A DNA stretch of 20,207 bases. Origin: a virus. The notes under the pieces are model-generated. The model was not told where the DNA came from and searched no databases. It worked only from the letters and a program-made list of their open reading frames with translations. Below are positions 40-20,008 of the stretch, piece by piece (the stretch's first letter is position 1; every line of letters starts with the position of its first letter). The stretch spans positions 1 to 20,207 of the IMG/VR virus record IMGVR_UViG_3300008448_000874. One strand, given 5' to 3'. Both the position numbers and the translations under genes were made by a program.

Positions 40-1104
40 ATGTCAATGACAAACAACGAAGACGCATCAGCTGCCTTCAGCTCAACTTCTAATGAACGTC
101 CATTGGAAGTTAACCCGGATCCAGCAACTACAGATCCATTTGCAACTCCAGAAGCCGAAGCTCCTATTATAGAAATCAATGAACCAATCAACCTACGTCC
201 AGACCTCAACCTCATCGGCATTGAGGAAGTAGATCGAGGCATTTGCGAAGACACGTTCGAGAACCGACAAATCCTACGTCGTGCGAAGTTCAACTGGATC
301 CCAGTCTACGCAACCAACGGAGTTCCAACGGGACTCATCCAGGCAATATCTCACGAGATGGCAACCGAGAAACGTATAATAAGCCTTGCCGAGAAAAAGC
401 CCATCCTCACAGACCCAACGAACAAAAACTCTGATTATATAACTGGCTACGATCTTCTAGCTGAAGAAGCTGCGGACTATATCGTTCCGCCTTGGGTCAT
501 TGGAGCTACCAGGGCCTGGATCAAAGAACAAACGGAGCCCGTTAGAAGTTCAAGAAGGAAGCCTGCTGCACTTCCTACTCGTTGTACGAACGTCAAGGAT
601 GACGGAATTCGATGCCAACTCTGGTCTTCGGGACGTCTGCAAGATGACGGGCTTTGTCGAATTCACCTCAGGAGTGTGAAGCATCGTCCAGGTGATGACA
701 TCGAACGAGCTCGTCAGAAGTTATTCCAGGCAGCTCCATACGCCGTCGACGTTCTCGAAGATATGATGTCCAACGCAGAAAGCGAACCGGTAAAACTTAA
801 AGCCGCCACCGAAATTCTTGACCGAGCCGGAGTCCGCGGAGGAATGGAAATTGACACGAACGTTTCGTTGGAAGTTAGGCCTGCAGCTAGCATCATCTCC
901 GAACGTCTGAACAAACTTGCAACAAACGCAATCGAAGCAGCAGCAAGATTGAATGAGGCTGGGATCCTGGTAACTTCTAACGAAGTTGAACCGATGAGCA
1001 CAGTCGATGCATCCGGTAAAACTTCTAACGAACTTGATTCGAACATTGTCGACGCTGAGCTCATTTCGGATGACGCACAGGAAGGAAAGGTAACGGATGA
1101 GTAA
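40..1104 (+). CDS. Terminase small subunit-like zinc-finger protein
   Basis: The product is 354 aa from ATG 40. ATG 46 is an alternative with better spacing from GAAGGA, and an in-frame stop at 7-9 shows the gene starts inside the window. Residues 1-50 are acidic and low-complexity. A zinc-knuckle follows: C182, C192, C206 and H209, with a GxRC...LCRxHL pattern. Then comes a helical stretch (about 220-265: AAPYAVDVLEDMM...LKAATEILDRAG) of the kind seen in small terminase and related DNA-binding proteins of actinophages. If so, it would recognise phage DNA for packaging, but no large terminase lies downstream, so the role is inferred. Several segments (STSNE, VTSNE, KTSNE) are simply the translation of the 13-bp repeat. 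The next gene overlaps by 8 nt. It could also be another DNA-binding structural or regulatory protein. Confidence 0.6.
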   Translation: MSMTNNEDASAAFSSTSNERPLEVNPDPATTDPFATPEAEAPIIEINEPINLRPDLNLIGIEEVDRGICEDTFENRQILRRAKFNWIPVYATNGVPTGLIQAISHEMATEKRIISLAEKKPILTDPTNKNSDYITGYDLLAEEAADYIVPPWVIGATRAWIKEQTEPVRSSRRKPAALPTRCTNVKDDGIRCQLWSSGRLQDDGLCRIHLRSVKHRPGDDIERARQKLFQAAPYAVDVLEDMMSNAESEPVKLKAATEILDRAGVRGGMEIDTNVSLEVRPAASIISERLNKLATNAIEAAARLNEAGILVTSNEVEPMSTVDASGKTSNELDSNIVDAELISDDAQEGKVTDE

Positions 1105-1303
1105 CGATCCCAAACTTCTAACGAAGGCACGCGAACTTGCAGCTCAGCTCGCTGCAGACGTCAACCAGGCGTCCACTAGACTAGAACATATAAGACTAAC
1201 CGCCAGAGCAAACGAAGCAGCGCATTTGCTTCAGGATCTGGAGAAACTTCTAACGACGGGAGAGATTGATGACGAAGAGGACGAACCGCGAAGCATTTCT
1301 TAA
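1097..1303 (+). CDS. Small helical hypothetical protein between TerS-like gene and lysin
   Basis: A 68-aa protein starts at ATG 1097 behind a strong AAGGAAAGG ribosome site, overlapping the upstream stop by 8 nt, so it is translationally coupled. It is almost wholly alpha-helical in character (Ala/Leu/Glu heptads about residues 6-52) with an acidic tail. Two KLLT segments (residues 6-9 and about 51-54) are each encoded by a copy of the 13-bp repeat. I recognise no family. Position and size would suit a small lysis or morphogenesis accessory, but it has no membrane segment, so it is not an obvious holin. Confidence 0.6.
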   Translation: MSNDPKLLTKARELAAQLAADVNQASTRLEHIRLTARANEAAHLLQDLEKLLTTGEIDDEEDEPRSIS

Positions 1304-2039
1304 AGAGGCCGCAGCACACTGCGGGTATCAAGTTCGAATGAACAACCCATCCGTTTACAGTATCAAGTTAGGGTACCCTAACAAAAGTTGGAGCGGAGCT
1401 TTCATTGACGTTGTTGCACGAACCGTTGGGCTGAATCTCCCATCGCATCTGAACACGGCCAGCGCGCTGAGCTACTACTTCCAACGAGGACAAACTCACG
1501 TACGACCGAAACCAGGAGACATCGTCTTCTTCAACTTCTCACAGGACTCCGATCAAGGTATGCCACACTGCGGAATCGTTACCGACGTCAACCACTTCGC
1601 AAAGCACGGCATGTTCCAGTGCATCGAGGGCCAAACTTCTAACGGAACTCCAAAAGGAAGTTCAGCCAACGATGGCGTCTACAGACGAAACCGATATGTT
1701 TACGAAGTACTCGCCTTCGCGCGGCCAAACTTCAAACGAATGTTCATTGAAAGTTTGGACGACGGCAGCTCAGATCCGGCAAAACTTCTAACGAAACCGT
1801 CCGTTATTAAACACGGGCTTCAGCATGCGTACGTGATTCCGATTCAACTTGCGTTGTCTGTAGTTGTTGGACTCCGCGGAGCAAAACGAGGCGAGTGGGA
1901 CCACAAGACTGCAGCTGCCTTCGCAAACTTCCAACGAAGAATTGGATACCTGGGAGATGACGTCAACGGACTTCCTGACATTCACAGTGCAAGACGTCTG
2001 TCCACAGAGGCAGGAAATCTTTTTAAAGTTATTGATTGA
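1269..2039 (+). CDS. CHAP-like endolysin with peptidoglycan-binding C-terminus
   Basis: The product is 256 aa from ATG 1269, six nucleotides after GGGAGA; an in-frame TTG at 1266 is less likely. The gene overlaps its upstream neighbour by 35 nt. Residues about 8-125 look like a CHAP/NlpC-type amidase-endopeptidase: a WSGAFID segment (41-47) where the family has its WC-nucleophile motif, KPGDIVFF (about 81-88), and PHCGIV with the candidate catalytic H100. In that alignment the nucleophile cysteine is replaced by S42. Residues about 185-250 resemble a PG_binding_1 repeat (LRGAKRGEWDHKTAAAFANFQ). The likely role is cell-wall cleavage at lysis or a virion-associated wall hydrolase. Four 13-bp repeats lie inside the gene, in all three codon phases. 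Loss of Cys makes classical cysteine catalysis doubtful. Confidence 0.72.
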   Translation: MTKRTNREAFLKEAAAHCGYQVRMNNPSVYSIKLGYPNKSWSGAFIDVVARTVGLNLPSHLNTASALSYYFQRGQTHVRPKPGDIVFFNFSQDSDQGMPHCGIVTDVNHFAKHGMFQCIEGQTSNGTPKGSSANDGVYRRNRYVYEVLAFARPNFKRMFIESLDDGSSDPAKLLTKPSVIKHGLQHAYVIPIQLALSVVVGLRGAKRGEWDHKTAAAFANFQRRIGYLGDDVNGLPDIHSARRLSTEAGNLFKVID

Positions 2040-2042
2040 GAG

Positions 2043-2071
2043 TTGCATTCTTTTATATAACGTGCTAGCTT
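2043..2071 (+). promoter_or_regulatory. Leaderless-type promoter for the 2079 operon
   Basis: TTGCAT (2043-2048), a 17-nt spacer, then TAGCTT (2066-2071), seven nucleotides before ATG 2079. No Shine-Dalgarno lies between, so transcription would start at or next to the ATG. An AT-rich TATATAA stretch lies in the spacer. Confidence 0.5.
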
Positions 2072-2078
2072 CTTCTGT

Positions 2079-2303
2079 ATGGAAGAAGAAAATTTATATT
2101 GCTCCCGCTGTTTAATGTGGGTGCCGACGTCTAAGATATTTACCGAGATGGGCGAGATAACCGCGTGCATTGATTGCAAAGGAACTTGTAGGGACTGCTC
2201 GAGTGAAGTAGATGAAGACTTACTCGAACATGGATTGTGCATGAGTTGCTGTCTTGACATTGAAGAAGAGGCAGAGGAGAATGGCTACTATGACGAAGAT
2301 TAA
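2079..2303 (+). CDS. Cys-rich zinc-ribbon hypothetical protein
   Basis: A 74-aa protein with repeated CxxC pairs: C8-C11 (YCSRC), C31-C34 (CIDC), C38-C41 (CRDC) and a late CMSC, then a strongly acidic tail. The pattern predicts one or two structural zinc sites, as in small phage zinc-finger proteins that modulate host enzymes, though no specific family is recognised. There is no Shine-Dalgarno; the -10 hexamer ends seven nucleotides before the ATG, indicating a leaderless transcript. The next gene begins inside its 3' end, making this the first gene of a four-gene operon. Confidence 0.65.
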   Translation: MEEENLYCSRCLMWVPTSKIFTEMGEITACIDCKGTCRDCSSEVDEDLLEHGLCMSCCLDIEEEAEENGYYDED

Positions 2304-2589
2304 TTATTGCTCAACATGTTGCAACTCCGAGGCAGATGCCGAACTAGTTTCCTCCTACACCGATCACAAAGGCAAACGCGCTTTTCAATGTAAAGACTGC
2401 ATGGAGGGTTCAAACTGCTTTACGTGTGAATGTTGCGGAGATGGTTTAGCAACCGAATGCGTAGATTACAAACCGAGCGGTTATAGGGAGTGGTGGTGCT
2501 TGGATTGTGCCATAGACCATGACAAAACAGTTTTTAGCAAAAAGAACAGCTGGTATTATGAACAACCAGAAAACCTGACAGAGGACTAA
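2281..2589 (+). CDS. Cys-rich zinc-binding hypothetical protein
   Basis: About 102 aa from ATG 2281; ATG 2290 is equally possible, and both follow GAGGAGA (2273-2279). It begins with a YCSTCCNSEAD segment and carries further Cys pairs (FQCKDC, CFTCECCGDG, WWCLDC), so at least two zinc knuckles are likely, arranged much as in the preceding gene. The two may be diverged duplicates. It overlaps the upstream gene by about 23 nt, and its stop shares one base with the next start (TAATG), so translation is coupled. Function is unknown. Confidence 0.65.
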   Translation: MATMTKINYCSTCCNSEADAELVSSYTDHKGKRAFQCKDCMEGSNCFTCECCGDGLATECVDYKPSGYREWWCLDCAIDHDKTVFSKKNSWYYEQPENLTED

Positions 2590-2942
2590 TGGAACCGTCA
2601 TACACTTATCACGAATTTCTTCCGCTACCTCGAGGAACATACAGCGTTATTATTTATTACAGCTTTAGACGTAATAACTACGTTTTAGAAGTTTTACGCA
2701 AAAAAGGAGTAAAGTTTACCGCTGGCGGGGATTACTTTCCAAGAGGAATCATGGGAATGAATCTTGACGATGAAGAAGCAAAAGAATTACAAGCGGTTGG
2801 CTTTGAAATGAGAAAAAACAATTATGAAAGTGTCAGCGCAGTTCAATTTGTAAAAACAATCGAGCGCAATCAAAAGCTTGACAAACTAGCAGAATCTATT
2901 AGACTTACAGCAAAACTAAAACCTAAAGAAAAGGAAATCTAA
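2589..2942 (+). CDS. Hypothetical protein, 117 aa
   Basis: The start overlaps the previous stop by one base (TAATG). The first half is hydrophobic/aromatic and beta-like (TYSVIIYYSF, YVLEVLRKKG). The middle has a GGDYFPRGIMGMNLDDEEAKELQAVGFE region, and the C-terminal third is a basic helix (TIERNQKLDKLAESIRLTAK). It is not recognised, and no catalytic motif is evident. It is the third gene of the operon that ends at the terminator near 3250. Confidence 0.6.
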   Translation: MEPSYTYHEFLPLPRGTYSVIIYYSFRRNNYVLEVLRKKGVKFTAGGDYFPRGIMGMNLDDEEAKELQAVGFEMRKNNYESVSAVQFVKTIERNQKLDKLAESIRLTAKLKPKEKEI

Positions 2943-3232
2943 TGGTTAATTTTCAAAAAGTAGAAGAAGCTCTCGAAGAAGCACAAGGAATTGCATGGGA
3001 CTCATGCCACAAGATCTATGTGCTACTAGATAAAGAGCAAGTTTCTATAATGCGCATTTACGAGTACGAGTACGTGTACGACACCGAAGACATGTCAAAA
3101 GAAGAAATGCTTGACAGGCTTATAGAATGGTATGACGATTCCTGCAACCTAAGGTTTATTCAATCAATCCGAACCGATTACGTAGAACCGAATGACGGTT
3201 TTGAAGATTTGATTGAACAATTTGCTGAATAA
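2942..3232 (+). CDS. Acidic hypothetical protein, 96 aa
   Basis: Coupled to the previous gene through another TAATG junction. The protein is acidic and mixed alpha/beta, with a repetitive YEYEYVYDTEDM stretch around residues 40-52 and no recognisable motif. Its stop lies only about 10 nt before the run of A that opens the terminator hairpin, so it is the last gene of this operon. Confidence 0.6.
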   Translation: MVNFQKVEEALEEAQGIAWDSCHKIYVLLDKEQVSIMRIYEYEYVYDTEDMSKEEMLDRLIEWYDDSCNLRFIQSIRTDYVEPNDGFEDLIEQFAE

Positions 3233-3241
3233 CAATTCAGT

Positions 3242-3279
3242 AAAAAACTTCCCCGCCTAAACAGCGGGGATTTTTTTTA
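3242..3279 (+). terminator. Rho-independent terminator
   Basis: A perfect CCCCGC (3251-3256) / GCGGGG (3264-3269) stem with a 7-nt loop, preceded by A6 and followed by T8 (3271-3278). It separates the 2079-3232 operon from the repeat-rich gap. Confidence 0.93.
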
Positions 3280-3310
3280 TCCGCACGAACGCGCGGATTA
3301 TTTCTCCTCG

Positions 3311-3475
3311 CATCCCGTCAAACTTCTAACGAAGCTCGTTAGAACTTCCACCATCCGGAAAACTATTCCAGCACACTGGAGCCGGTAAAACTTCCAACGA
3401 AACCGATTAGAAGTTGCACCAGGAAAATCCGGCCGCATCGGCTAACTTCCAACGAACTTCATCAGAAGTCAGGAA
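3311..3475. repeat. Intergenic cluster of inverted 13-bp repeat pairs
   Basis: This 300-base gene-free gap (3233-3532) contains three paired units of the repeat. At 3321-3344, TTCTAACGA and TCGTTAGAA form a perfect 9-bp stem with an AGC loop. At 3389-3415, AACTTCCAACGAA faces GATTAGAAGTT. At 3444-3467, AACTTCCAACGAA is followed by CAGAAGT. Units are about 55-65 bp apart, with CCGG nearby in each. No gene is visible. Candidate roles are protein-binding array, replication or packaging site, or structured RNA. Confidence 0.85.
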
Positions 3476-6005: not shown

Positions 6006-7037
6006 ATGATAAATACAACACAAAGTCTAAATGACGAACAAAAAGTAGCGTTAGACAGAATAAACGCTACCGAGAAACTACACGAAAAACTGCCAACTAT
6101 GTTGGTAGCAGTATCAGCTCAAAAGGTAAATGAAACTGCCAATGAGCAACTAAAATCAAATCTAAGCAAATCTGGAACGCTAACAATGCGTAATTCCGAG
6201 GACAAAAAGAAAGTCGTGAAAACAAAAATGGCAGAAACGCTAACTTCTGAAAATGCTATCAAGCGACCTAATGGCGAGATGTATTACACTCGGACTTGGG
6301 GCGAACACTCGGACACCGAGGTTCTGAAAAAACTGCGTGGTATTAGTCAATACGCTTTACTTTATGGTGAGGCTGGTTGTGGTAAAACTGCTCTGGTTGA
6401 GGCTAGTTTCGGTGAGGAACTTTATACAATTCTAGGATCAGGCGATACCGAGGTTGGCGATTTAGTCGGTTCTTATGTCCAAACTCCAAGTGGAAACTTT
6501 GAGTGGATAGACGGACCTTTGGTAAAGTCAGCCGAAAATGGTGGCGTATTGCTAATTGACGAGGTTGGACTTATTGACCCGAAAGTTATGTCGGTTGTTT
6601 ATTCCCTGCTTGACGGAAGAAAAGAGCTTGTAATCACTTCTAACTTGGATAGGGGAACAATAAAAGCAAAAGAGGGGTTCTTTGTAGTTGGTGCTACTAA
6701 CCCTAATGCCCCCGGAGTTGTTTTATCAGAGGCATTACTCTCACGCTTTACAGCACAAGTGGAACTGACTACCGATTGGTCGCTTGCTAAGAAGTTAGGT
6801 GTCCCTGCGATTATCGCTACTGCTAGTCAGAACTTAGCCAAAAAGCGTATCTCTGGCGAAATCTCTTGGTCGCCACAAATGCGAGAAGTATTAGCGTTTA
6901 GAGATTTAGAGATCGCCTTTGGAACGAAATGGGCAGTAAGCAACCTAATCGCCATAGCACCTGAACTAGATAGACCTATTGTTGCCGAGGTTCTATCTAG
7001 GGTTTATGGCGAGGAAGTAAAAACTGCTAAAATCTAG
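6006..7037 (+). CDS. MoxR/CobS-like AAA+ ATPase
   Basis: 343 aa from ATG 6006, five nucleotides after GAGGA; a TTG at 5994 is in frame but lacks support. The AAA+ core follows a charged N-terminal segment (1-90). It has Walker A GEAGCGKT (121-128), Walker B LLIDEV (D185, E186), sensor-1 GATNPN (N232), and an SRF arginine-finger candidate (R247). The fold type is AAA_5/MoxR, as in CobS of aerobic cobaltochelatase and phage relatives. These ATPases remodel partner complexes together with VWA proteins, and the next gene encodes exactly such a partner. A role in cobalamin metabolism is not implied; remodelling or maturation of a phage or host complex is the safer inference. Confidence 0.9.
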   Translation: MINTTQSLNDEQKVALDRINATEKLHEKLPTMLVAVSAQKVNETANEQLKSNLSKSGTLTMRNSEDKKKVVKTKMAETLTSENAIKRPNGEMYYTRTWGEHSDTEVLKKLRGISQYALLYGEAGCGKTALVEASFGEELYTILGSGDTEVGDLVGSYVQTPSGNFEWIDGPLVKSAENGGVLLIDEVGLIDPKVMSVVYSLLDGRKELVITSNLDRGTIKAKEGFFVVGATNPNAPGVVLSEALLSRFTAQVELTTDWSLAKKLGVPAIIATASQNLAKKRISGEISWSPQMREVLAFRDLEIAFGTKWAVSNLIAIAPELDRPIVAEVLSRVYGEEVKTAKI

Positions 7038-7050
7038 GCTCTGTGTCCTG

Positions 7051-7108
7051 CCTAAGTTTTAGCTTAGGGGGTAGAAATCCTTTTTCTTGTTTTCAGATTT
7101 CTACCCCC
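7051..7108 (+). terminator. Double hairpin, probable terminator or attenuator
   Basis: The first stem is CCTAAG (7051-7056) / CTTAGG (7063-7068). The second is a perfect 13-bp stem, GGGGGTAGAAATC (7067-7079) / GATTTCTACCCCC (7096-7108), around a pyrimidine-rich loop. The two stems share two bases, so they partly compete. The placement between the ATPase and VWA genes, just before a new promoter, suggests partial termination. Confidence 0.65.
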
Positions 7109-9044: not shown

Positions 9045-9072
9045 TTGACTTGTTCAGGAAAATCTATACCAT
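9045..9072 (+). promoter_or_regulatory. Promoter for 9104 operon
   Basis: TTGACT (9045-9050), 16-nt spacer, TACCAT (9067-9072); the ribosome site GAAAGGAAAA precedes ATG 9104. Confidence 0.5.
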
Positions 9073-9103
9073 AGAAGTATCACCATTACGAAAGGAAAAC
9101 TAA

Positions 9104-9433
9104 ATGAGTGAAAACTGCCAAGACCCGAACCACGATCACGAAAAGGGGCAAGACCTAATGGAAGTAATTGCCGAGCTGGAAACGACAGAGGAAATTGCTG
9201 GACTTGCTATCCAAATCTTCTGTGCTATGGCTACTACTGCTGTAAATCTGGAAATGCCTAATCCGTTCTTTCACCGAGCATTTGAGCCTTACAAAGCATT
9301 AGCAGAGAAGTTAGGTATTCAGGAAATTACTGATCTAGTAATTACAACTGAAATGGAACACACATCAGCAATAGAGCTAATGGCTTCTCAACTTAGACAC
9401 CCTGCTTTCAGAAAAAAGAGGGGTAAGAAGTAA
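9104..9433 (+). CDS. Hypothetical helical protein, 109 aa
   Basis: The N-terminus has a possible metal-binding NCQDPNHDHEKG segment, followed by three to four helices (MEVIAELETTEEIAGLAIQI, AFEPYKALAEKLG, SAIELMASQLRHP) and a basic tail (FRKKRGKK). The sequence is not recognised. The stop overlaps the next ATG by one base (TAATG), so expression is coupled to the Api92-like gene. Confidence 0.7.
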   Translation: MSENCQDPNHDHEKGQDLMEVIAELETTEEIAGLAIQIFCAMATTAVNLEMPNPFFHRAFEPYKALAEKLGIQEITDLVITTEMEHTSAIELMASQLRHPAFRKKRGKK

Positions 9434-10236
9434 TGCCAAATTGGGTCTATAACAAAGTAGAGATTTCTGGCTCTAAAACCGATTTGTTGGAGTTTGCTAA
9501 CAAAGCTAAACAGCAACACGAAACAAATTATTTATCTGATACTTGGATAAAGAACGCTGACGGAAACAATGTAAAGAACGAGGACAGGAAAAACGAAAAG
9601 AACATAAGCGAACCTTGTGATCTGTCTTTCTGGAACTTTGTATCGCCTAAGCAAGAACTACTAGATACTAACGAGTATTGGGGTAGAGAGGACTTTCCCG
9701 AAGGTTGTTGGTATCAGTGGAACATAGATAATTGGGGAGTGAAGTGGGACACATCAGGATCAAGCTTAGAAACTATCTTAGACAAGTTAGGCGAAACCGA
9801 CACGATAATCTATCGCTACGATACAGCTTGGAGTATTCCCTATCCTGCTATGGAGGCTATGGTAGAGCAACACCCGAACTTAGAGTTTCAGTTTTATTGC
9901 GAGGAGGAACAAGGTTGGGGGGCAGAGTTTCTTGGCGTAGAGGGGGAACTCAATGAAACTAGATCTTGGGAAATACCGAGTTGCCACGCTGACTATGTTG
10001 CTAATGGTAGTGAGGATAGTTGTATTTGTGCCAATGATGATGACGAGGAAAGTTGGTATTCTGACTGCCCTAAACCTGTTCAGCCTTACAAGGTTGTAAT
10101 CAGAACCGATTACTCGGTTATGGCTAGTGATCCTGCGAAAGCTTATGAGAGCATTACAGAGAACCTAGAAGTATCAGATAATACTTTCATAGAAGTATTT
10201 GACGAAACAGGAAATAAGGTTTATCCTGTGTTATAG
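9433..10236 (+). CDS. Api92/DUF1281-like protein (YubB ferredoxin-fold)
   Basis: 267 aa beginning MPNWVYNKVEISG, the hallmark start of this phage and plasmid family. Further family features are FWNFVSPKQEL (about 67-77), NWGVKWD (about 100-106), and a YDTAWSIPYPAMEAM...HPNLEFQF block followed by EEQGWGAEFLG. The family has a ferredoxin-like fold and no established biochemical function. A C-terminal extension (about 215-267), rich in Asp/Glu then beta-like, is probably an extra domain. It is translationally coupled to the upstream gene, and three tandem hairpins follow the stop. Confidence 0.8.
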   Translation: MPNWVYNKVEISGSKTDLLEFANKAKQQHETNYLSDTWIKNADGNNVKNEDRKNEKNISEPCDLSFWNFVSPKQELLDTNEYWGREDFPEGCWYQWNIDNWGVKWDTSGSSLETILDKLGETDTIIYRYDTAWSIPYPAMEAMVEQHPNLEFQFYCEEEQGWGAEFLGVEGELNETRSWEIPSCHADYVANGSEDSCICANDDDEESWYSDCPKPVQPYKVVIRTDYSVMASDPAKAYESITENLEVSDNTFIEVFDETGNKVYPVL

Positions 10237-10246
10237 AAATAAACTT

Positions 10247-10370
10247 CGGTAAGCTTTTTTCCTGCTTGTTGTGCTTACCGATAATGTGGATAGATGTTTC
10301 ACAACTTCCTTTCTGCTATCCACAACCGAGGGCTAGGCGATTATTTTTCCCCCTGTTTCTAATCGCCTAG
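10247..10370 (+). other. Three tandem hairpins with pyrimidine-rich loops
   Basis: Hairpin 1: CGGTAAGC (10247-10254) / GCTTACCG (10273-10280). Hairpin 2: GTGGATAG (10286-10293) / CTATCCAC (10316-10323). Hairpin 3: CTAGGCGATT (10333-10342) / AATCGCCTAG (10361-10370). All stems are perfect and of unrelated sequence, and each loop of 18-22 nt is C/T-rich. Loop 2 contains TTCCTTTC (10306-10313), the exact complement of the Shine-Dalgarno word GAAAGGAA used here. This fills the gap between the Api92-like gene and the XRE gene. It could act as terminator, RNA stabiliser, or anti-Shine-Dalgarno-like decoy. Confidence 0.8.
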
Positions 10371-10416
10371 CTCTCACCAGAAAAGAAGTTAGTAAATGAC
10401 GAAAGGAAAGTGTCTA

Positions 10417-14544: not shown

Positions 14545-14552
14545 GTTTGGTT

Positions 14553-14622
14553 TATCGGTTGCTCTTTCTTGCCCACTCTCGCAACCGATAATGGCAGTAG
14601 TTTCTCTCATTTCCTACTGCCA
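14553..14622 (+). other. Two pyrimidine-loop hairpins
   Basis: TATCGGTTGC (14553-14562) / GCAACCGATA (14581-14590) around an 18-nt C/T-rich loop, then TGGCAGTAG (14592-14600) / CTACTGCCA (14614-14622) around the 13-nt loop TTTCTCTCATTTC. Stems are perfect. The second loop is identical to that of the hairpin at 18992. Confidence 0.85.
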
Positions 14623-14752: not shown

Positions 14753-15226
14753 ATGACCACTCAACAAATAATTTCAGCAATACCGCTAGCGTATTTATTA
14801 GTAGGGGCTATACCTGTTCTGGTGATAAACGCTAGACAGAGTAGAGTTCCAAATAAGTTTGTAGTCCCCCTGCTCTTTATCACACTTGCGACCAGCACGA
14901 CTAACGCAGTTCTGTTCGGCACTTGGGCAAATTGGGGAATTGGATTATTAGCAAGTTTGTTTATGCTTATCGGTATGACTATTTGGCACGAAAGATCGGG
15001 AACTATTGGTATGGGAGATGTAAAGCTAATCGCAACAGGGCTACTAATTATCTGTTCCGTATCGCTCTTACACGCTCTAATTTATTTAGGGGCAGTAGTT
15101 CTAGCCTTTATTCTTGTCTGGCTAGTAATGCTATTTGTTCTTAGGGACATAGAGCGACTTGTAAAGGTTGCCCCTGTTATTCTGGTAATCATTATCGGTG
15201 TAAGTTCATCAGCACTATTCGCCTAA
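14753..15226 (+). CDS. A24 prepilin-peptidase-like membrane protein
   Basis: 157 aa, almost entirely hydrophobic, with about five to six membrane helices (near 7-25, 37-55, 60-75, 92-112, 108-130, 138-155). The GMGDVKL motif (residues 86-92, D89) is the second catalytic motif of type IV prepilin peptidases (A24, GxGD aspartyl protease, also TadV/CpaA-like). The first motif region reads NARQSRVPN (26-34), where active enzymes have an Asp at position 26; here it is Asn. It may therefore be inactive or use another residue. A24 enzymes cleave and sometimes methylate prepilins in the inner membrane. In a phage this could interfere with host Flp/Tad pili, but that is inference. ATG 14753 follows a GGAAAG site. 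Confidence 0.68.
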   Translation: MTTQQIISAIPLAYLLVGAIPVLVINARQSRVPNKFVVPLLFITLATSTTNAVLFGTWANWGIGLLASLFMLIGMTIWHERSGTIGMGDVKLIATGLLIICSVSLLHALIYLGAVVLAFILVWLVMLFVLRDIERLVKVAPVILVIIIGVSSSALFA

Positions 15227-18795: not shown

Positions 18796-18995
18796 TACCA
18801 ACCTTGTTGCTGTTTGCGGTGTTCTCTACTGCTTGCGGTATTTATTTCGGGATCACTAATAATAACCTTGCTGAGCTGGCGTGGGGAGTATTCTTGGGCG
18901 GGCTGTTCTGGTTTGTTGCTATGGTTCTAATAGTTGCCGAGTTAGCACCAGCAATAAAAAGCAAGCACCGAAAGAAAAAAATAAAAAGCGTGTAA
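18792..18995 (+). CDS. Two-helix membrane protein, 67 aa
   Basis: ATG 18792 overlaps the previous stop by four bases (ATGA). Two hydrophobic helices (about 2-20 and 27-52) with a short Asn-rich turn, then a strongly basic cytoplasmic tail (KSKHRKKKIKS). It pairs with 18589. Its stop codon sits inside the 5' arm of the hairpin at 18992. It may be a small membrane effector or holin-like component. Confidence 0.66.
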   Translation: MIPTLLLFAVFSTACGIYFGITNNNLAELAWGVFLGGLFWFVAMVLIVAELAPAIKSKHRKKKIKSV

Positions 18996-19022
18996 TTGGG
19001 TTTCTCTCATTTCCCCGATTAC
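18992..19022 (+). other. Pyrimidine-loop hairpin with the 14601 loop
   Basis: GTAATTGGG (18992-19000) / CCCGATTAC (19014-19022), one wobble, with the loop TTTCTCTCATTTC identical to 14601-14613 although the stem is unrelated. It overlaps the stop codon of the gene at 18792. Confidence 0.8.
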
Positions 19023-19712: not shown

Positions 19713-20008
19713 TGAGCAAAGCAACGCAACTAAAAAAGAGTAGTCCCGAGTGGCAGGAAATTATCGGGGCTAATAAAAATTGGTTTAGTGCCGAAACACT
19801 AAACTTTTTTGGATCAACTATTTTCTGGGGAACTCTTACCAATACCGGACTAGGCAGGGTATTCATAACGAGTGAGTGGAATTACACTCACGAACAAAAG
19901 TTATTTACTATCCGTCTAGTGAGTGCCGATAACAAGATAGACAATTATGGCGAGTTTCAGGGGTATAACTCTCTTGCCGAAACATTAGAAGTTATCGGGA
20001 AACTCTAA
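19712..20008 (+). CDS. Hypothetical protein, 98 aa
   Basis: The start overlaps the upstream stop by one base (TAATG). It looks beta-rich (LNFFGSTIFWGTLTNTGLGRVFITSEWNY, QKLFTIRLVSADNKID), with many aromatics and no cysteine. It is a likely small globular phage protein of unknown function. A T-tailed terminator follows. Confidence 0.7.
   Translation: MSKATQLKKSSPEWQEIIGANKNWFSAETLNFFGSTIFWGTLTNTGLGRVFITSEWNYTHEQKLFTIRLVSADNKIDNYGEFQGYNSLAETLEVIGKL

Follow-up and report, generated by a model that had tools for sequence, protein, structure and literature searches.

Hairpin loops following phage genes and their complementarity to translation starts of their own transcription units

Pairing of the 3′ end of a message with the ribosome site of the same message is already known in bacteria from a handful of mRNAs. 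In the icaR mRNA of Staphylococcus aureus, the motif UCCCCUG of the 3′-UTR pairs with the Shine-Dalgarno sequence of its own mRNA; initiation is blocked and RNase III cleavage occurs, as proved by compensatory changes (PMC3868564). CarZ and OppZ of Vibrio cholerae are autoregulatory small RNAs derived from 3′-UTRs and released by RNase E; CarZ binds Hfq and targets the first gene of its own operon, thereby lowering that operon (PMC7398697). Long-distance 5′-3′ anti-Shine-Dalgarno pairing has been described for the hok and aapA toxin mRNAs (PMC6733600), and a 14-nt pairing between the 5′- and 3′-UTRs of the hbs mRNA of Bacillus subtilis is reported to protect this message from RNase Y (PMC7821165). 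According to the sections of the latter source available to us, 3′ ends that pair with their own ribosome site are often not conserved between close relatives. Post-transcriptional control in phage T4, as far as the accessible part of the source describes it, relies on protein-bound operators, unlike loop-leader pairing (PMC3014915). The literature searched, which covered few subscription journals, yielded no report of phage 3′ loops that pair with leaders.

The window, meaning the whole stretch of DNA analysed here, is a virus record of 20,207 bases with all called genes on the + strand. Its ATPase matches that of Actinomycetia phage DSL-LC01 and, more distantly, those of Microbacterium and Gordonia phages; judged by sequence, the virus is related to large phages of actinobacteria. 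No relative was found in a search of a collection of genome contigs, and a literature search by the name DSL-LC01 found no paper. An earlier note on this DNA had described three tandem hairpins and similar ones at 7067, 14553, 14592 and 18992. All seven are present, and are listed here with the unit that precedes the trio:

7067-7108, + strand: hairpin after the ATPase gene (6006-7037), seen in the hairpin scan
9045-9072, + strand: promoter-like site of the unit 9104-10236 (TTGACT, 16, TACCAT), a consensus match only
9090-9097, + strand: ribosome site GAAAGGAA of gene 9104-9433, the proposed partner of loop 2; the 8-mer stands at seven other places in the window
9104-10236, + strand: two-gene unit preceding the trio, with genes 9104-9433 (109 aa) and 9433-10236 (267 aa, DUF1281_C-like)
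10246-10281, + strand: trio hairpin 1, 9 bp, loop of 18 = TTTTTTCCTGCTTGTTGT; orthologous hairpin in L005, L150 and L153
10285-10324, + strand: trio hairpin 2, 9 bp, loop of 22, with TTCCTTTC at 10306-10313
10328-10375, + strand: trio hairpin 3, 16 bp including one G-U, loop of 16 = TTTTTCCCCCTGTTTC
14552-14591, + strand: hairpin with loop TCTTTCTTGCCCACTCTC, no partner in its own unit
14592-14622, + strand: hairpin with loop TTTCTCTCATTTC, no partner in its own unit; 8-bp matches before genes 16329 and 16578
18992-19022, + strand: hairpin with loop TTTCTCTCATTTC, no partner in its own unit

The trio follows the stop of gene 9433-10236 and precedes an HTH gene with a possible start at 10396; GAAAGGAA also occurs inside the frame of this HTH gene, five bases past the ATG at 10396, and the gene caller chose 10489. 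The window contains 17 hairpins whose stems reach 9 bp or more (loops of 3-30), compared with a mean of 3.95 in 20 dinucleotide shuffles, and the hairpins of the trio are real, strand-specific and more than chance. The stems had been described as perfect and unrelated: unrelated they are, but hairpin 3 and the hairpin at 18992 each contain one G-U. The loops at 14592 and 18992 are identical and are carried on two unrelated stems. As had been noted, TTCCTTTC of loop 2 exactly complements GAAAGGAA, a sequence listed eight times in the window, seven of them directly before ATG; loops 1 and 3 contain no exact complement of this common ribosome site. Elsewhere in the window, a phage gene at 14753-15226 has a weak match, below the curated cut-off, to type IV prepilin peptidase (Peptidase_A24), and the 10-mer ACTTCYAAYG occurs 16 times on both strands, against 0.17 expected in shuffles (15 of the 16 matches at 85-3454, the other at 19983-19992); similar words are found in relatives.

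Hairpins with C-rich loops are known in actinobacteria as 6C RNA. The phage loops differ from these in having no fixed sequence, and with E values up to 1 allowed, the window gave no hit to the Rfam covariance model of 6C RNA. Two weak leader matches to Rfam, below the gathering score, were obtained at 3208-3280, away from the trio. Inside them, at 3250-3270, lies a short-looped, G+C-rich hairpin flanked on each side by T runs. It has the textbook form of an intrinsic terminator on either strand and contrasts with the trio-type hairpins.

In the window itself, loop 2 is the only loop of the trio that pairs at the start of its own unit, by 8 bp and with the common ribosome site. Its helix with the site at 9090 (-12.4 kcal/mol) ranks fifth among 45 starts, tied with other genes. 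Loop 1 has no partner within the predicted mRNA of the unit, and loop 3 reaches only -8.0 kcal/mol at the unit's start. Loops 1 and 3 do have matches, at 9055 and 9026 respectively, but the transcript is predicted to start downstream of both, near 9079, and these matches were not counted. The hairpin at 7067 has no good partner at the starts of its own unit (-7.4 and -9.3), unlike most relatives, and no hairpin follows the gene encoding a VWA-domain protein.

The character of the loops becomes apparent in a larger set of phages, from which loci of the same or near-identical records were removed before counting. In 38 related loci (707 kb), 49 of the 130 loops of intergenic hairpins between + genes are pyrimidine-rich and nine are purine-rich, compared with 13 and 14, respectively, of the 104 loops of coding hairpins. 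Likewise, in 13 longer phage records and the window, loops after genes (co-directional neighbours) are pyrimidine-rich in 67 cases and purine-rich in 35, and loops inside genes in 36 and 81. The pyrimidine bias is strand-specific, being tied to the mRNA sense of hairpins between genes. For 61 pyrimidine-rich loops, 5.2% of leaders reach a contiguous helix of -14 kcal/mol or better, versus 2.7% for the reversed loops (Wilcoxon p 6e-5); the same loops show no difference against coding sequence (1.2%, and 1.4% when reversed), and 142 other loops no significant difference between their own and the reversed order. The 5 kb preceding each of 317 hairpins were searched as well: the best complement fell in a translation-initiation region 47 times with the actual loops and 19 times with reversed ones. 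By their base order, beyond mere composition, pyrimidine-rich loops are thereby antisense to starts of translation, and they look pyrimidine-rich because these starts are purine-rich. The earlier description of the loops as anti-Shine-Dalgarno mimics captures this look, but not a sequence-conserved mimic: the loops are antisense to translation starts, and the partner covaries.

The clear cases are found in the relatives, in two transcription units neighbouring that of the trio. There, the gene after the ATPase gene encodes a VWA-domain protein, and the loop of the hairpin after this gene matches the gene's own ribosome site, about 1.9 kb upstream. Where the start was usable (34 loci), the complement shared by the 150 nt past the VWA stop measured 8.74 nt with the own leader and 6.94 nt with the VWA leaders of other phages (0 of 20,000 permutations). 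L013 and L024 had been left out of these counts (36 to 34), the VWA start being ambiguous, and two further loci without a hairpin, the window among them, were left out of the analysis of helix energies (34 to 32). The hairpin loops gave -15.17 kcal/mol with their own leader and -10.88 kcal/mol when swapped (n=32), and after deduplication -15.70 and -10.95 kcal/mol (n=27; 0 of 4,000 permutations). The excess in this last set, 4.76 kcal/mol, was obtained in the interval -60 to +10, and five other intervals gave -0.67 to +0.54.

A held-out set of new loci was fetched with a VWA profile and analysed by the unchanged procedure. From 80 loci, 62 on records not used before were kept, then 47 after dropping 15 look-alikes, 45 with a VWA reading frame, 40 with a hairpin and finally 39 with enough leader. 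Own pairs in this set reached -17.39 kcal/mol and swapped pairs -12.24 kcal/mol (0 of 10,000 permutations); 35 of the 39 lay above their swapped mean, differences in four other intervals were at most 0.55, and reversed loops showed a small excess (10.25 versus 9.77, p 0.047). VWA loop and leader change together from phage to phage, and only the interval -60 to +10 shows the signal.

Pooled over deduplicated phages, 53 of 66 VWA loci reach -14 kcal/mol or better. These strong pairs comprise 38 leader words and 39 loop words, with 11 G-U among 528 pairs, and the word begins at -21 to -9, over the ribosome site, in 46 of the 53. Matches of 13 nt were found in L007 and DSL-LC01, and one of 14 nt in L219. 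The partner lies further upstream in the leader in L033 and L039 (TTCGGAAG with loop CTTCCGAA) and in L034 and L053 (TTGGAAG with loop CTTCCAA); by our reading of the sequences, such upstream partners may be hairpin loops themselves. The own leader is the best of all phages' leaders in only 20 of 66 rows. Within genomes, 10.8 of 54 VWA-unit hairpins match their own start better than any other start, where 2.1 would be expected, and in most genomes another leader matches the loop as well as the own one, or better. Of the 14 VWA cases that combine strong pairing with a promoter score of at least 9, the promoters being predicted from sequence, 13 have their predicted transcript start upstream of the leader word, with leader and hairpin on the same strand.

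This replicated covariation argues against the view that the hairpins are only terminators or 3′-end stabilisers with incidental loops, as does the finding that the tails of all seven window hairpins lack the T run of an intrinsic terminator. The terminator scan, which admits loops of 3-8 only, lists none of the seven. The placement of the hairpins after stop codons and the terminator-like stems of some second hairpins in relatives (GAAACCCC..GGGGTTTC) would be in keeping with that view, which we nevertheless regard as very improbable; an added role of the hairpins in termination may exist.

In the ATPase unit of the relatives, a gene of about 150-210 codons precedes the ATPase gene by 10-47 nt, and the loop after the ATPase gene matches the start of the unit's first gene, that of the ATPase gene, or both. 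The loci were defined by position, in place of a sequence pattern that had found only three. Against the first-gene leader, the loop gave -11.47 kcal/mol with its own partner and -8.29 kcal/mol when swapped (n=33, 0 of 20,000), and reversed loops of this discovery set also showed an excess (9.40 versus 8.03). When resolved by interval (n=29), the excess was +2.85 kcal/mol in -60 to +10 of the preceding gene and at most +0.61 elsewhere. The held-out set (n=40) gave 13.02 versus 9.70 (+3.32) at the preceding gene and 12.82 versus 9.64 (+3.18) at the ATPase start, each with 0 of 10,000 permutations. Other intervals stayed at or below 0.47, except for +0.93 at +10 to +80 of the ATPase gene (p 0.0017), and reversed loops gave 9.61 versus 8.87 (p 0.012). 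Both leaders of the unit often carry the same word, such as CACCTAC at -25 and -26 in L056 and CAACCTAC at -23 and -26 in L219; in DSL-LC01, only 6 nt match at this unit. Many of the words are not ribosome sites but other parts of the leader, and some contain AUG, as in L043 (ACACCCATG with loop TCATGGGTGT); their loops are therefore not pyrimidine-rich, and the look of a loop follows its target.

These loops bear on the suggestion, made in the earlier note, that the loops bind a C/U-specific protein or serve as decoys. Pyrimidine-rich loops, and the one identical loop on two unrelated stems of the window, speak for such a protein. From phage to phage, however, loops vary widely yet stay complementary to the own leader, and in several of them pyrimidines do not prevail; because of this, the protein and decoy ideas gain nothing, and we consider them hardly credible. 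Loops not conserved in relatives had been named beforehand as a result that would refute the earlier reading. Taken literally, the loops are indeed not conserved, yet they covary with their targets: loop-leader covariation is seen in the VWA and ATPase units of related phages and was replicated in held-out phages.

Over all units (n=497), the first gene of the own unit was the best of all starts 39.4 times, with 17.5 expected, exceeding neighbouring units, and no signal was obtained with reversed or wrong-strand loops. Outside the VWA and ATPase-size units there was no unit-specific signal (z 0.14, versus 0.10 for the neighbouring unit), and most of the all-unit signal stems from the VWA and ATPase units. 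Other arrangements were tried and rejected. Initially, each loop was supposed to pair locally with the ribosome site of the gene downstream. The 260 nt following a loop did match it better than they matched swapped loops (p 0.006), but the unit tests favoured the own unit over the next. A genome-specific style of ribosome site was not borne out, the own genome's sites being matched no better than those of others (mean rank 0.47). Pairing of every gene with its own hairpin failed without VWA-size genes (z 0.07), which led to the testing of transcription units.

For the VWA and ATPase units, the own unit exceeds both its neighbours and the leaders of other phages, which makes it unlikely that the loops act mainly in trans on several genes, with 3′-end RNAs or fragments repressing sets of early genes that share leader words and own-unit pairing being one case. 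Several observations do point in that direction: the general antisense order of pyrimidine-rich loops towards leaders, the word shared by the two ATPase-unit leaders, and a weaker signal for the next unit (z 0.27), to whose start L016 has a 10-nt match. In G001, moreover, the 14-nt loop of a hairpin at 40605 is fully complementary to the leaders of genes 45324 and 45653, about 5 kb downstream, and may belong to a cross-unit regulator; the loop at 35649 of the same phage matches several leaders. A further hairpin, with a loop containing GTCCTCTCCCCAG, is sequence-conserved, unlike the other loops: it is kept word for word in L010 (4197), L016 (3459), L023 (1716), L025 (3422) and L046 (5392), several kb upstream of the ATPase gene, with variants in other phages.

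Among eight annotated cultured phages examined at the place of the ATPase unit, three are positive. In Microbacterium phage Pumpernickel, the loop TTGTCGTTG after the ATPase gene gp227 pairs over 9 nt with CAACGACAA at -16 of gp226 (-14.8), and gives -8.4 at the ATPase start; the 49 kb fetched contain three copies of this 9-mer, and there is a stronger match within coding sequence. The whole 8-nt loop of Cece pairs with gp211 at -24, and 7 nt of that of A3Wally pair with gp242 at -20. Big4 and Zooman have no such hairpin at this place, their first gene overlapping the gene before, and no convincing pair was found there in the Gordonia phages GMA2, Forza and GodonK.

The trio itself recurs in the three closest relatives of the window, L005, L150 and L153, again as three tandem hairpins after the orthologous two-gene unit. 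The third loop in these phages pairs over 12-16 bp with the start of its own unit, from the ribosome site to the AUG: L005 and L150 have TTTGGTGGTTCT with GGAACTACCAAA (-19.3 kcal/mol each), and L153 has 16 bp with its own start (-22.0 kcal/mol). The three are alike in sequence and therefore are not three independent cases. In G001, which has the same hairpins as L005, the own unit ranks second of 98 starts for the third loop. The trio stems, compared by eye, stay paired through two-sided changes, as in UCGGUAAGC/GCUUACCGA against UCGGUGAG/CUCACCGA and GUGGAUAG/CUAUCCAC against ACGGAUAG/CUAUCCGU. No such trio was found in L017, L018, L007, L159, L161 and L156, where a related DUF1281-like gene forms a single-gene unit. 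We infer that the trio of the window would act as a 3′-end regulator through loop 2 and the site at 9090, and that the partner may have moved here from loop 3 to loop 2.

Overall, the hairpins are probably 3′-end regulatory elements of early phage transcription units that autoregulate translation, in a manner resembling icaR and CarZ. Each loop would present a sequence antisense to a translation-initiation region, be it the ribosome site, its flank or the AUG, and the target in the best documented cases would be the start of the own unit. Loop and leader could meet by folding back within one mRNA, between molecules, or via a released 3′ fragment. Pairing would block ribosome loading, such that the unit is damped once complete transcripts accumulate. 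Pairing in the cell, repression and action in cis are proposed from sequence, and repression is favoured because the words lie over the ribosome site and AUG. The earlier suggestion that such hairpins could sequester ribosome sites is supported for the family, by the antisense order and by the own start in two units, while the window itself offers weak support. The contact could instead protect or circularise the mRNA, keeping nucleases off the 5′ end with no translational repression, and 5′-3′ pairing of one mRNA is compatible with either outcome, hbs providing a precedent (PMC7821165). This we judge rather improbable, given that 46 of 53 VWA words start at -21 to -9 and some ATPase words contain AUG, where pairing should hinder initiation.

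Autoregulation by 3′-end hairpins may be part of something wider, and we tentatively raise, as a possibility with the odds against it, a programmable layer of RNA control, in which the loop at the end of an early unit would be an antisense address for one or several starts, freely rewritten between phages as long as the leader or leaders change with it, and cross-addressed loops, for instance the 14-nt one of G001, would wire a network of timed shut-off. Such pairing appears to persist across dozens of divergent phages through the joint change of loop and leader; this is evidence from nature that two RNA segments 1-2 kb apart make a functional contact, and it points to control of a message's translation by its own end. 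The phage set is a ready series of natural compensatory variants, and its cultured members allow one to ask whether finished mRNA ends shut off early translation.

How do these hairpins compare with the described systems? In the literature searched, we found no phage system in which covariation of loop and leader maintains such pairing in two adjacent units and across dozens of genomes. The likeness to icaR lies in a pyrimidine-rich 3′-UTR motif antisense to the ribosome site of its own mRNA (PMC3868564), and a 3′ motif complementary to the own ribosome site was found for the VWA unit of the relatives in both the discovery and held-out sets. Unlike in icaR, the phage motif is located in the loop of a strong hairpin soon past the stop, occurs in at least two adjacent units, is known from sequence, and persists in dozens of genomes through covariation of loop and leader. 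As in CarZ and OppZ, an RNA at the operon end would pair with the initiation region of a gene in the same operon (PMC7398697); such antisense complementarity is present in the ATPase unit, at both starts, and in the VWA unit. CarZ and OppZ are released by RNase E, with CarZ on Hfq, according to the available text of that report, whereas the phage hairpins are known as sequences. With hbs they would share the contact between two ends of one mRNA, and they differ in that the phage words lie mostly over the ribosome site (PMC7821165). With hok and aapA they would share a 3′ end that masks the ribosome site of the full-length mRNA; those, as presented in the accessible part of the source, are small toxin mRNAs activated by 3′ trimming (PMC6733600), whereas the phage mRNAs measure 1-2 kb and more and encode an ATPase, a VWA protein and a DUF1281-like protein.
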